Assembly (NCBI GenBank): GCA_902554355.1
Contig: CACDOC010000002.1
Span: forward strand, 21,626-85,625
Source of the DNA: an uncultured SAR86 cluster bacterium
GTDB lineage: Bacteria > Pseudomonadota > Gammaproteobacteria > Magnimaribacterales > Magnimaribacteraceae
Length of the DNA: 64,000 bases
Reading direction: 5' to 3'
Part shown: one piece after another, positions 3,931 through 22,149 of the stretch
Layout of the letters: every line of letters begins with the position of its first letter
Position numbering within the stretch: the first letter of the stretch is position 1
Made by a program: the position numbers and the translations under genes
The notes under the pieces: generated by a model
What the model was told of the DNA's origin: nothing
Databases searched by the model: none
The model's input: only the letters and a program-made list of their open reading frames with translations

Positions 3931-3951
3931 TAAAATCAATACTTTACATTT

Positions 3952-3992
3952 AAAAAAAAAGTTAAAAAAAAGTTAAAAAAAAGTTAAAAAAA
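3952..3992 (+). promoter_or_regulatory. Phased A-tracts (curved DNA / UP-element-like) upstream of a promoter
   Basis: A-runs at 3952-3960, 3964-3971, 3975-3982 and 3986-3992 separated by GTT, with GTT/GTA at 3961, 3972, 3983 and 3993 (period 11, 11, 10). Confidence 0.75.
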
Positions 3993-3995
3993 GTA

Positions 3996-4023
3996 TTGAC
4001 CGATACTAAAAAAAGAGTATTAT
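3996..4023 (+). promoter_or_regulatory. Sigma70-like promoter for candidate ncRNA
   Basis: -35 TTGACC (3996-4001), 16-nt spacer, -10 TATTAT (4018-4023); predicted TSS about 4030. Confidence 0.75.
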
Positions 4024-4029
4024 TAACTT

Positions 4030-4244
4030 ACTTAATTATCCGATCTGGAAACAACTCGAGACGGTAGAAAGAAGAGATAAATAAGTTAGAGAACGAAAGT
4101 AGAAAGCTCTAATAAATAAAGGTACCAAAAAAATTTATTAGACCACCAAGATTAAAAGAGAAATTAATCAAGGCGCTAGAAAAAAAAACTCAAATCTAGA
4201 CACTTTCGAACTCGAACTAAACAGAGCTAAGGCTCTGTTTTTTT
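4030..4244 (+). ncRNA. Candidate structured small RNA, family unknown
   Basis: Intergenic, promoter at 5' end and intrinsic terminator at 3' end. Serial hairpins: 4030-4039/4077-4086 (9 of 10 pairs), 4086-4091/4107-4112, 4110-4117/4133-4140 (8 bp), 4150-4155/4164-4169, 4176-4180/4195-4199, terminator 4219-4240. No ATG on either strand in this interval. Confidence 0.7.
4219..4244 (+). terminator. Rho-independent terminator
   Basis: AAACAGAGC-TAAG-GCTCTGTTT followed by a T-run. Confidence 0.9.
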
Positions 4245-4250
4245 ATGCCC

Positions 4251-7306: not shown

Positions 7307-10123
7307 TTAATCTCCAATTTCTTTAAGTTTGGCAAGTAATTCTGTTTTAAAAATATCATCCTTAATTTCTGCTTCAATTGATAAATACCAAAGATTTTTA
7401 TTCTTCATATCCATACATCTTACAGCGTCCTTTTCTGTCATTAAGATAGGATGATTATCTTCAAAATTTAAATCCTCTTCTTTAAATTGATAGTGATCTG
7501 GGAAACTGTGCTCTACAAGATTAAGACCTAAAGCATTTAATGTATTATAAAACTTAGAAGGGTTTCCTATTCCAGCAACAGCATGCACGTTTCTCGATAA
7601 AGGCCAATCATTTGCAGGAAACCTTCTATTGTCACTTAACCGAACCCATTCCAGTGGTTTGTAGATCATTAAACAATCCTCTTGTATCTCATCTAAATCT
7701 AATCTTTTAGAGGAACTAACGATAAAATCAACATCTTTTAGACGTTCAATAGGTTCTCTTAAAGGGCCAGCAGGCAAACAAAGATTATTTCCTATTCCTC
7801 TTATTCCATCAAAAACAACAATTTCCATATCTCTATCTAGTTTATAGTGCTGTAATCCATCATCACTTATAACTATGTCTGTATCTGTTTCTTCTAACAA
7901 TTTCTTAACAGCTTGAGTCCTGTTAGGAGAAATACAAATTGGTCTATTAGTATTTCTATGAATAATAAGTGGCTCATCTCCTGAATCATCTACTCTCGAG
8001 TTATCATCAATAATTAACGGGTATTGATTTGATTTGCTTCCATAACCTCTACTTACTATTCCTGGTTTATATCCTTGGTCCTCAAGAAGCTTAGATAACC
8101 AAATAACAAAAGGCGTTTTTCCAGAACCTCCTACAATAATATTTCCAACAACTATTACGGGAATATCTGGTTTCCAGGAAAGCTCTGAATTAAGTAAGAA
8201 TTTATTTCTTCTTCTTATTGCTATAGATTTAATAAGTCTAGAAATTGGCCAAAGGATCCACAACCAAAGTCTTTTCTTATACCAACTATCTTCAATAAAG
8301 CTAACTTGATTTATTTCCGTCTCTTCAGGCACAGTCAAATCTGTAATTTCATCTGTTTTAGTTATTTCCTGAGGCTCGTCTTTAAATTGATTCTTGTGGA
8401 GTTCAGCATAATAGCTACCTTTTTCAATAAGAGATGCATGGTCACCTACTTCTACAATCTTTCCATGATCCAATACAACAATCTTATCTGCAGATTCAAT
8501 TGTTGAAAGACGGTGAGCAATAACTAAAGTGGTCTTATTTTTAGATAATTCAACAAGCGCCTCTTGAATATAATTTTCTGATTCTGAATCTAGAGCTGAG
8601 GTTGCCTCATCAAGAATAAGTATAGATGCGTCTTTTAATATGGCTCTTGCTATAGCTATCCTTTGACGTTGACCTCCGGAGAGTAAGACACCATCATCGC
8701 CTGCTTGTGTCTCATATCCATCAGCCATTAATTCTATAAAAGAGTCTGCATTGGCTTTTCTTGCAGCTTCTTTTATTTTATCCAAATCATTATTTGAAGA
8801 TCCATAATTTATATTGTTGGCGATAGTGTCATTAAACAGGGTCACGTTTTGGCTAACCAAGGCTATGTGTGATCTTAAATTAGTTATTTCATATTCCCTT
8901 ATAGATATGTCATCTATCTTTATATCTCCTTCGTATCCATCATAAAACCTAGGAAGTAAGCTCATTAATGTTGTTTTACCAGCACCTGACTTTCCAACAA
9001 AAGCTATGGTTTCTCCTTTCTTAATTAGTAAATTAATATCTTCTAGCGTATTGTCTCCTTCTGCTCCTTCATAAGAGAAATTAAGATTTGAAAAACTTAT
9101 CTCTCCATTAATTTCTTCTGAAGTATAACTACCTTCATTTTTTTCAGGCGTTTCATCCAATTGACTAAATATATCTTCAGCTGCGGCTAGTCCTTTCTGT
9201 ATCTGACTATTAATTTCTGATAATTGTCTTACAGGCTTAGCAAGCATTCCTGCAGCGCTAAAAAAGGCTATAAAAGTACCAGGGGTCATATTAGAAACAA
9301 TAGAAGCATCAAGCGCTAACCATGTTATTAATGCTAAAGCTGCAGAAACAAAAAGCTGAATTAATGGGGAAGCAATTGAATTAGTAGCTTCTAATTTTAG
9401 ATTCTGCTTTCTATTATTGTCACTCGCATTTTTAAATCTGTTGATTTCATAATCTTCTCCACCAAAGGACTTAACTTCTTCATGTCCAGTTATGGTTTCG
9501 GAAGCTACATGTGTTACATCTCCCATCGCTGTCTGAATTCTTCCGCTAATCTTCCTAAGCCTTCTCGCAGCTATACCAACTATTATCGCTATGAAAGGAG
9601 CAGCTATAAAAAGAAACATAGCTAATTTCCAATTAAGAAACATTAAATAAGTAATTAAACCTATAACTAATAAACCTTCACGTATAAAAATTTTTAATGC
9701 ATTTGTAGCCGCACCGGTTACCTGCATTACATTAAAGGTTATTCTCGAGATTAAATGTCCAGAACTATGTTGATCGTAGTAAGAGCTTGGCAATACAGTA
9801 AGTTTATTAAAAAGTTCTGTTCTAATATTATGAACAAGCCTATTGGATATAGAGGAAAGAAGGTAATTTCCTACAAAAAAACCGATACCTCTTACTAACG
9901 CTATAACAATTAGAACTAAAGGCAGAATAAGACGCATGTCCCCAATGGGGTCATTGACGTAATCAATAACTCTCTTAAGCCATTCAGTGGCTGCAACTTG
10001 AGAACCTGAATAAACAGCAAATCCTATAATGCTGACAACAAATAATGGTATATAAGGCAATACATACGAAAGCAATCTACCGTAAAGGCGGATACCTGAT
10101 AGTTTTGTATTTTTACTAGCCAT
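7307..10123 (-). CDS. Fusion: lipid A export ABC transporter MsbA (N-terminal) + tetraacyldisaccharide 4'-kinase LpxK (C-terminal)
   Basis: N-terminal ABC exporter with GKSGAGKTT Walker A and LSGGQRQR signature; C-terminal WYKKRLWLWILWPISRL...IPVIVVGNIIVGGSGKTPFVIWLSKLL...SRGYG LpxK motifs, in one open frame of 938 aa. Confidence 0.92.
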   Translation of the reverse strand: MASKNTKLSGIRLYGRLLSYVLPYIPLFVVSIIGFAVYSGSQVAATEWLKRVIDYVNDPIGDMRLILPLVLIVIALVRGIGFFVGNYLLSSISNRLVHNIRTELFNKLTVLPSSYYDQHSSGHLISRITFNVMQVTGAATNALKIFIREGLLVIGLITYLMFLNWKLAMFLFIAAPFIAIIVGIAARRLRKISGRIQTAMGDVTHVASETITGHEEVKSFGGEDYEINRFKNASDNNRKQNLKLEATNSIASPLIQLFVSAALALITWLALDASIVSNMTPGTFIAFFSAAGMLAKPVRQLSEINSQIQKGLAAAEDIFSQLDETPEKNEGSYTSEEINGEISFSNLNFSYEGAEGDNTLEDINLLIKKGETIAFVGKSGAGKTTLMSLLPRFYDGYEGDIKIDDISIREYEITNLRSHIALVSQNVTLFNDTIANNINYGSSNNDLDKIKEAARKANADSFIELMADGYETQAGDDGVLLSGGQRQRIAIARAILKDASILILDEATSALDSESENYIQEALVELSKNKTTLVIAHRLSTIESADKIVVLDHGKIVEVGDHASLIEKGSYYAELHKNQFKDEPQEITKTDEITDLTVPEETEINQVSFIEDSWYKKRLWLWILWPISRLIKSIAIRRRNKFLLNSELSWKPDIPVIVVGNIIVGGSGKTPFVIWLSKLLEDQGYKPGIVSRGYGSKSNQYPLIIDDNSRVDDSGDEPLIIHRNTNRPICISPNRTQAVKKLLEETDTDIVISDDGLQHYKLDRDMEIVVFDGIRGIGNNLCLPAGPLREPIERLKDVDFIVSSSKRLDLDEIQEDCLMIYKPLEWVRLSDNRRFPANDWPLSRNVHAVAGIGNPSKFYNTLNALGLNLVEHSFPDHYQFKEEDLNFEDNHPILMTEKDAVRCMDMKNKNLWYLSIEAEIKDDIFKTELLAKLKEIGD

Positions 10124-12055: not shown

Positions 12056-13492
12056 TTAGGCTGATTTTGGGTTATCTTCTTTCTTTTTGTATGGAGGCAC
12101 TAAACCTGCGAGTTTGTTTAGATTCAACCAAGACTGCTTATATACAGATTTAGCATGACTAAATTCTTTAAAGCCATCATGCCCATGATAAGAACCCATT
12201 CCACTAGGACCTACTCCACCAAATGGTAAATCCTCCATTGTTATATGGGAGATAACATCATTTACAGTAACACCACCAGAAGTAGTATTATCAAGAACAT
12301 AATCCTTTTCTCTAGAGTCTTCACCAAAATAATACAGCCCCAAAGGTCTATCCTTGCTATTAATATAATTTACTGTTTCAGAAACATCTTTGTATGTTTT
12401 TACTGGTAAAACAGGACCGAAAATCTCTTCCTGCATAACTTGCATATCTTCAGTAGGATTTAAAATAATGGTAGGGGGTATTTTATGGTGAGGTTGCTGA
12501 CTAAAATCTTCATTAGAAGGGTTAATCTCGACAACATCAGCTCCTTTTTCTTTTGCATCAGAAATGTAACCTTGAATACGATCATAATGCTTTTGATTAA
12601 TAATCGATGTGAAATCTTCATTATCTTTCATATCAGGATACATCTCTGAAGTCACTTCAACAGAGGCTTGAACAAATTCATCTACACTATCTTCAGGAAC
12701 TAGAGCATAATCAGGAGCTAAGCAAATTTGACCTGCATTCATTGTTTTGCCTTGCATAACTCTGGTAGCCGTCTCTTTAATTTTAGAAGATTTACCGACT
12801 ACAACTGGAGATTTTCCTCCAAGCTCTAGAGTCAGGGGCACTAAATTGTCTGAAGCTGCTTTCATTACATGTTTAGCAATAGCAGTGCCACCAGTAAAAA
12901 TTAAGTGATCAAAAGCTAGTCCACTAAATGCAGCTCCAACTTCAGGATCACCGGTAAATACTGCAATCTCTGATTCATCAAAAAACTCTTCTATCATAGA
13001 TTTTGTAAGATCAGAAGACGAAGGAGTAAGCTCAGAAGGCTTTAACATTACTCTATTGCCAGCTGATAAAATTCCACCCAGAGGAGCTAGAGCGAGGTTT
13101 AAAGGAAAATTCCAGGGACTAATTGCACCGACAACACCTTTAGGCTGATATCTTATTTCTGCTTTAGCTCCTAAAAGAGATAAAACTGGCCCTAAAGGAG
13201 CTATAGCAGCCTTTCTTTTCTCAGTTTTCATCCACTTCTTTAAGTTCTTTTTTGCGTGAAGCATAGGCCCTATCACAGACTGTACTTCTGTTGCTGCAGA
13301 CATTACTGGATCTCTATTTCCAAAATCATCTTGTAAAGCAGAAATTATTTCTTTCTCATATTTTGTAACCATAGATACCACTCTATCTAACCGATCAGCT
13401 CTCAGCTCTAAACTAGGAGCTCCTTCTTTAATATTTAAGCTCTTTTGAAGCTCCAATACACGATGCATATTTTGTATAGTTTCGTTACTCAT
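12056..13492 (-). CDS. Aldehyde dehydrogenase (coniferyl aldehyde dehydrogenase-like)
   Basis: GAISPWNFPLNLALAPLGGILSAGNRVMLKPSE...LELGGKSPVVV...NAGQICLAPDY. Confidence 0.9.
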   Translation of the reverse strand: MSNETIQNMHRVLELQKSLNIKEGAPSLELRADRLDRVVSMVTKYEKEIISALQDDFGNRDPVMSAATEVQSVIGPMLHAKKNLKKWMKTEKRKAAIAPLGPVLSLLGAKAEIRYQPKGVVGAISPWNFPLNLALAPLGGILSAGNRVMLKPSELTPSSSDLTKSMIEEFFDESEIAVFTGDPEVGAAFSGLAFDHLIFTGGTAIAKHVMKAASDNLVPLTLELGGKSPVVVGKSSKIKETATRVMQGKTMNAGQICLAPDYALVPEDSVDEFVQASVEVTSEMYPDMKDNEDFTSIINQKHYDRIQGYISDAKEKGADVVEINPSNEDFSQQPHHKIPPTIILNPTEDMQVMQEEIFGPVLPVKTYKDVSETVNYINSKDRPLGLYYFGEDSREKDYVLDNTTSGGVTVNDVISHITMEDLPFGGVGPSGMGSYHGHDGFKEFSHAKSVYKQSWLNLNKLAGLVPPYKKKEDNPKSA

Positions 13493-17921: not shown

Positions 17922-17925
17922 AATC

Positions 17926-18085
17926 GAAGTTGAAGGGGTCAGTGCGGGTTTATCACTGTGTGGCTAGTACCCTTTCTAACTCACAGATGGCTAACTTTCG
18001 TTAATCCTTTCACCCTTCTTCTTCTGTCCATTTTTTTCCTGATTCGGGTCTCGAGGTCCGATTCTTTCCAAAATATGTCCTAAGT
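17926..18085 (-). ncRNA. Candidate multibranched structured RNA, family unknown
   Basis: Promoter-like TTGCAA-N16-TAAATT on the minus strand (18115-18088). Long-range stem GAAG(AA)GAAGGG (18024-18013) / CCCTTC(AA)CTTC (17937-17926) encloses three hairpins (18007-17989 with C(GAAA)G tetraloop; 17986-17956; 17958-17940); a further hairpin lies at 18064-18041. Exact ends uncertain. Confidence 0.55.
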
Positions 18086-22057: not shown

Positions 22058-22149
22058 TGGCGGATAGTGAGGGATTCGAACCCCCGAAGGGTTTGACCCC
22101 TTGCCGGTTTTCAAGACCGGTGCATTCAACCAGACTCTGCCAACTATCC
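22058..22149 (-). tRNA. tRNA-Ser(UGA), CCA encoded
   Basis: GGATAGT...ACTATCC acceptor stem, anticodon arm CCGGT-CTTGAAA-ACCGG, long variable arm, GGTTCGAATCC T-arm, ...GCCA 3' end. Confidence 0.97.

Follow-up and report, generated by a model that had tools for sequence, protein, structure and literature searches.

Covarying self-complementary words in the loops of the OLE and GOLLD RNAs have been taken as evidence of symmetric intermolecular kissing, and the homo-oligomers of both RNAs have been resolved by cryo-EM (PMC12286853). Loop words of the same kind are found in IMES-1; OLE and GOLLD differ from it in being large RNAs whose multimers have been resolved, whereas IMES-1 measures about 215 nucleotides and its dimer is predicted from sequence. 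A second parallel is the HIV-1 DIS kissing loop, in which a six-nucleotide palindrome occupies an apical loop with purine flanks, an arrangement also seen in IMES-1 (PMC7357161). Nonetheless, the DIS serves the dimerization of a viral genome and has no relationship to IMES-1, whose loop is larger (15-19 nucleotides in the copies folded).

Identity and limits of the IMES-1 gene

In the window (the whole stretch of 64,000 nucleotides that was analysed), positions 4034-4225 of the forward strand match the Rfam family RF02034, IMES-1, over model positions 1-191, with 127.6 bits in Infernal versus a gathering threshold of 81. The initial annotation had presented this locus as a candidate novel sRNA, to be given up as novel if an Rfam/Infernal scan returned a known family. 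That scan has now been run, and the full-length match to RF02034 takes the novelty away. IMES-1 is the sole family reported at 4034-4225, even at E values up to 1, and IMES-5 (RF02995) was not reported there. IMES-1 is reportedly an abundant transcript in marine metatranscriptomes, as Weinberg and co-workers are said to have described in 2009. The literature searches returned no paper naming IMES-1, its founding description lying outside the literature covered, and no earlier proposal of a mechanism was found in the literature searched.

The same annotation had correctly set the locus apart from 6S and RNase P RNA. The 6S model (RF00013) has no match at the IMES-1 locus and the 6S RNA of this genome lies on contig C24 at 12057-12234, while the RNase P RNA (RF00010) was found elsewhere in the genome and not at this locus. 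Given that the genome has a 6S RNA, IMES-1 as a 6S substitute was rejected. An origin from RNase P RNA, prompted by the motif GGGUGAAA..AAGAG, was also rejected, as local alignments of IMES-1 with SAR86 RNase P RNAs fell mostly inside the range of dinucleotide shuffles, one of the eight standing at 0.03 against them.

Positions 4030-4247 of the forward strand are the SAR86 IMES-1 gene, present once in the (incomplete) source genome and predicted from its sequence to give an RNA of about 215 nucleotides from its own promoter to its own terminator. The 5' stem reaches 4 nucleotides further upstream than the Rfam model, and no ATG occurs on either strand in 4030-4244, as had been observed before. 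The sigma-70 type promoter previously proposed, TTGACC-N16-TATTAT, is present at 3996-4023 (forward strand) with 10 of 12 matches. Its weight comes from relatives, because in this region 2.0 sites with such a score are expected by chance and 2 were found: TTGAC[C/G]-N16-TATTAT is kept in four congeners with differing spacer letters, a promoter of at least 9/12 stands just upstream of 104 of the 131 IMES-1 copies, and the 16-nucleotide spacing recurs in nearly all the copies read. The intrinsic terminator at 4219-4247 (forward strand) has the 9-bp stem already noted (4219-4240), a 4-nucleotide loop and a T-run, and is kept in 130 of 131 copies, the lone exception being a run of N. With promoter, terminator and stems all kept in relatives, the earlier view of a structured and, presumably, separately transcribed RNA is well supported. 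Upstream of the promoter, A-tracts at 3951-3992 (forward strand) are phased at 11 nucleotides (GTT at 3961, 3972 and 3983), and the same A-rich repeats precede the promoter in four congeners (L150-L153). They may constitute an UP element or bent DNA, and may mark a strong promoter.

Fold and self-complementary loops

The strand at 4028-4247 has a folding energy of -47.5 kcal/mol, with z = -4.96 versus dinucleotide shuffles. In the model, the IMES-1 fold is a 5' hairpin followed by a three-hairpin domain that is closed by a long-range stem, approximately 4084-4100 with 4202-4218, and this layout is found at the window locus. The stems that had been described as standing in series are confirmed and conserved, but not all of them are serial, since hairpins 2 to 4 are enclosed by the closing stem.

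The 5' hairpin (4030-4086) has the stem 4030-4039/4077-4086, kept in relatives, which had been proposed as the first stem of the RNA. It pairs at 9 of its 10 positions and is supported in the SAR86 family f1, where hairpin-1 stems have a mean of 8.09 pairs versus 6.43 (maximum 6.96) for shuffled strands; the single-sequence fold favours an alternative pairing at these positions. Both strands of the closing stem come from the fold, the unpaired probability of 4094-4100 being 0.01, and its GAG/CUC is invariant in 40 of 40 aligned copies. Hairpin 2 (4108-4142, from the fold) has the stem 4108-4117/4133-4142 around a loop at 4118-4132, hairpin 3 (4150-4169) has a covarying stem and the loop GAG at 4158-4160, and hairpin 4 (4176-4199) has CUC in its loop at 4189-4191; all these elements are on the forward strand. 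Covariation across homologues, suggested by the initial annotation as a check, was found. Both-side changes occur in 12 of 18 predicted pairs of the 40-copy alignment; these 12 all belong to hairpin 2 or hairpin 3, and hairpin 2 has such changes at each of its 7 predicted pairs. Used by itself, RNAalifold finds hairpins 2 and 3 together with three pairs of the closing stem, and misses hairpins 1 and 4.

The loop of hairpin 2 consists of a six-nucleotide word between A-rich flanks. In the window this word is GGUACC (4121-4126, forward strand), self-complementary and with an unpaired probability of 0.98, and we propose it as a homodimer kissing loop. Because MAFFT shifts the word between families, it was scored not from the alignment but from family-specific anchors, which do not require self-complementarity and were picked family by family after the sequences had been seen. 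The word so located is self-complementary in all 133 copies (87 distinct hairpins), with Watson-Crick pairs only in 59 of the 87 and G-U pairs used in the remainder, while shifting the register by 1-6 nucleotides leaves 0-3 of the 87 self-complementary. Twelve words occur (GGUACC, GCUAGC, GUUAAC, GUUGAC, GCAUGC, GUCGAC, GCCGGC, GUCGAU, GUCGGC, GUAUAC, GUGCAU and GUGCGC). When their right halves are swapped, a mean of 3.8 of 12 remain self-complementary and 12 of 12 was reached in none of 300,000 trials, a permutation that overstates independence given that the copies are related. Along a tree from which the loop was left out, quickly made and with many weak forks, at least 26 changes of the word are counted, and at the central pair the left and the right side each change 13 times. 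Of shuffled versions of the window's own loop, 0.3% have a Watson-Crick palindrome. Duplex energies of the words range from -5.6 to -14.7 kcal/mol, and weak pairing is expected where a word contains G-U pairs or is built mostly of A-U pairs (GUUGAC, GUUAAC). Two copies fetched later bring the rule to 134 of 135 copies: L307 has the self-complementary GCCGGC, and L306 is a partial exception, its CCCGGU (read by eye) being self-complementary only in the central CCGG.

Since bases next to each other are unable to pair in the same chain, a self-complementary word points to a loop-loop homodimer. The loop-2 palindrome thus suggests that two IMES-1 molecules pair with each other, and IMES-1 has a covarying self-complementary loop of the sort used to argue for homo-oligomers of OLE and GOLLD. 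Palindromes are also typical of the binding sites of dimeric proteins, on DNA or RNA, but the 12 words, with inner letters from UUAA to CCGG, offer no common sequence to recognise, and such a site is very improbable here. It is also unlikely that IMES-1 is a housekeeping monomer, a protein scaffold whose palindrome has a use different from homodimerization, for example to pair with some other RNA. The invariant single-stranded AGAG, GAAAG and CCACC.AG do resemble protein or RNA contact sites; what loop 2 keeps, however, is self-complementarity per se, and hairpin 2 of IMES-5 has mostly a GAAA loop and no such word.

In each of the 133 copies loops 3 and 4 are complementary to each other, by GAG/CUC or a longer match, and the sole two departures from GAG/CUC are compensated (AAGA/UCUU in L263, GAAGA/UCUUC in L161). 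A kiss of these loops inside a single molecule is simpler to envisage than one between molecules. The loop of hairpin 1 holds a further self-complementary word, CUCGAG (4055-4060, forward strand), partly paired in the single-sequence fold. CUCGAG occurs in 29 f1 copies of IMES-1 and in the IMES-5 copies read, and CUGCAG in 87 f3 and 16 f4 copies of IMES-1. Loop 1 may add a second contact, common to IMES-5; this is suggestive only, there being two words separated by one CG/GC swap.

IMES-1 is therefore viewed here as probably a self-assembling structural RNA, in which the GGUACC of one molecule would pair with the GGUACC of another to form a dimer and loops 3 and 4 would kiss inside the closed three-hairpin domain. 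The Rfam structure line for IMES-1, which otherwise has the same architecture as the window RNA, shows no self-pairing of loop 2 and no kiss between loops 3 and 4. The IMES-1 family itself was already known; what appears new, as read from 133 copies, is the covarying self-complementary word. It gives a concrete and cheap prediction, namely that IMES-1 dimerizes and that swapping the palindrome changes the partner. If true, the small set of natural RNAs believed to act as homo-oligomers would gain a short member in IMES-1.

Several f3 genomes hold two nearby IMES-1 copies (L012 at 1176-1367 and 1501-1692, L014, L027, and those of G067, G079, G081 and others), and in the paired copies compared the loop-2 words are identical or cross-pairing.

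Distribution, gene neighbours and mode of action

Matches to the IMES-1 model occur in 131 of 204 genomes of the order, and by family, as counted from the table, in 26 of 35 genomes of f1, 86 of 108 of f3 and 15 of 21 of f4; four f2 matches score below the threshold and fall on IMES-5 loci. IMES-5 is found in 50 of the 204 genomes (21 of 35 in f1 and 29 of 40 in f2), and the order-wide search found none in f3 or f4. The families of SAR86, a marine group of gammaproteobacteria, have IMES-1, IMES-5 or both. An evenly drawn set of 365 other gammaproteobacteria gave no match to either RNA. Because many genomes are incomplete, absences in general are soft. In the family of a Porticoccaceae-labelled MAG, IMES-1 was found in 3 of 113 genomes (L303, L306 and L307, in G569, G571 and G570, respectively), so that its range is not strictly limited to SAR86; transfer, misnaming or misbinning may account for these copies.

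The main IMES-1 copy of f1 is flanked by the ETF-QO gene on one side and a DUF1285 gene on the other; in f3 and f4 it has other neighbours. Since IMES-1 stands directly 3' of ETF-QO in almost every primary locus of f1, it could be taken for a cis element or the 3' UTR of that gene; this is highly unlikely, given that its own conserved promoter separates it from ETF-QO and that the neighbouring genes in f3 and f4 are quite different. Indeed, no single protein gene accompanies IMES-1 across families.

The search for Hfq (PF17209) gave no match in six SAR86 genomes (G000, G006, G090, G094, G177 and G191), five of which are 92-97% complete, while five control genomes match. This bears on whether IMES-1 is an ordinary trans-acting antisense sRNA, with open A/G-rich loops that pair with mRNAs with the help of a chaperone such as Hfq. 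Its own promoter and U-tailed terminator are those of many sRNAs, but a fixed mRNA target would not select self-complementarity of a loop over its sequence, and together with the lack of an Hfq match this makes an antisense role improbable. The lack of a constant protein-gene neighbour and of Hfq favours a self-assembling, trans-acting structural RNA over an antisense RNA of the Hfq type, and the assembled IMES-1 would carry a trans-acting, Hfq-independent role. IMES-1 is retained by a widespread ocean lineage whose genomes are small and have no detectable Hfq.

Elsewhere in the window, a 938-aa open reading frame at 7307-10123 (reverse strand) joins an MsbA-kind ABC transporter (ABC_membrane, ABC_tran) to LpxK; judged from its domains, two genes for lipid A appear to be fused here.

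Relationship of IMES-1 with IMES-5

The window also contains an IMES-5 RNA (RF02995), located by its Rfam model at 17925-18075 on the reverse strand and proposed here as a paralogue of IMES-1. In the all-family search, the IMES-1 model spans this IMES-5 end to end with 25 bits and E 0.0028. For four f2 genomes that have no IMES-1 (G001, G002, G006 and G007), the best genome-wide match of the IMES-1 model is the IMES-5 locus, with E from 2.5e-6 to 4.2e-5, the next match having E 0.025 or worse. The reverse search, with the IMES-5 model, gave no match at the IMES-1 locus of the window. The two RNAs share the order of their elements, the ACU..AGAC loop, AGAAG/AGAG, GGGUGAAAG, CCACC, the CGA end and the complementarity of loops 3 and 4, which in IMES-5 is GGGU/ACCC (AGGU/ACCU in L203). 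IMES-5 differs in its length, 150 model positions versus 191, and in a short hairpin 2 that lacks the palindrome. On these likenesses, IMES-1 and IMES-5 look homologous, with a cross-match that runs in one direction only. Rfam has no clan for RF02034 or RF02995, and joining them would turn two orphan families into one question.

A wider proposal, which we favour only slightly over its negation, is that covarying palindromic loops let IMES-1 assemble with itself, perhaps at two sites and perhaps with IMES-5 as well, and that both belong to one superfamily with at least one member in most SAR86 lineages. A candidate third paralogue in G071 (L237, E 5e-4) lacks the motifs and was taken as a chance match.

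In several f1 genomes the IMES-1 and IMES-5 genes are approximately 13-14 kb apart on opposite strands. The f1 copies of IMES-5 have no clear T-run terminator of the kind that follows the f2 copies. In three loci (L094, L190 and L304) IMES-5 begins about 120-130 nucleotides after a tRNA gene, and in the window a tRNA-Ser(UGA) gene at 22058-22149 (reverse strand) lies about 4 kb from IMES-5 on the same strand.
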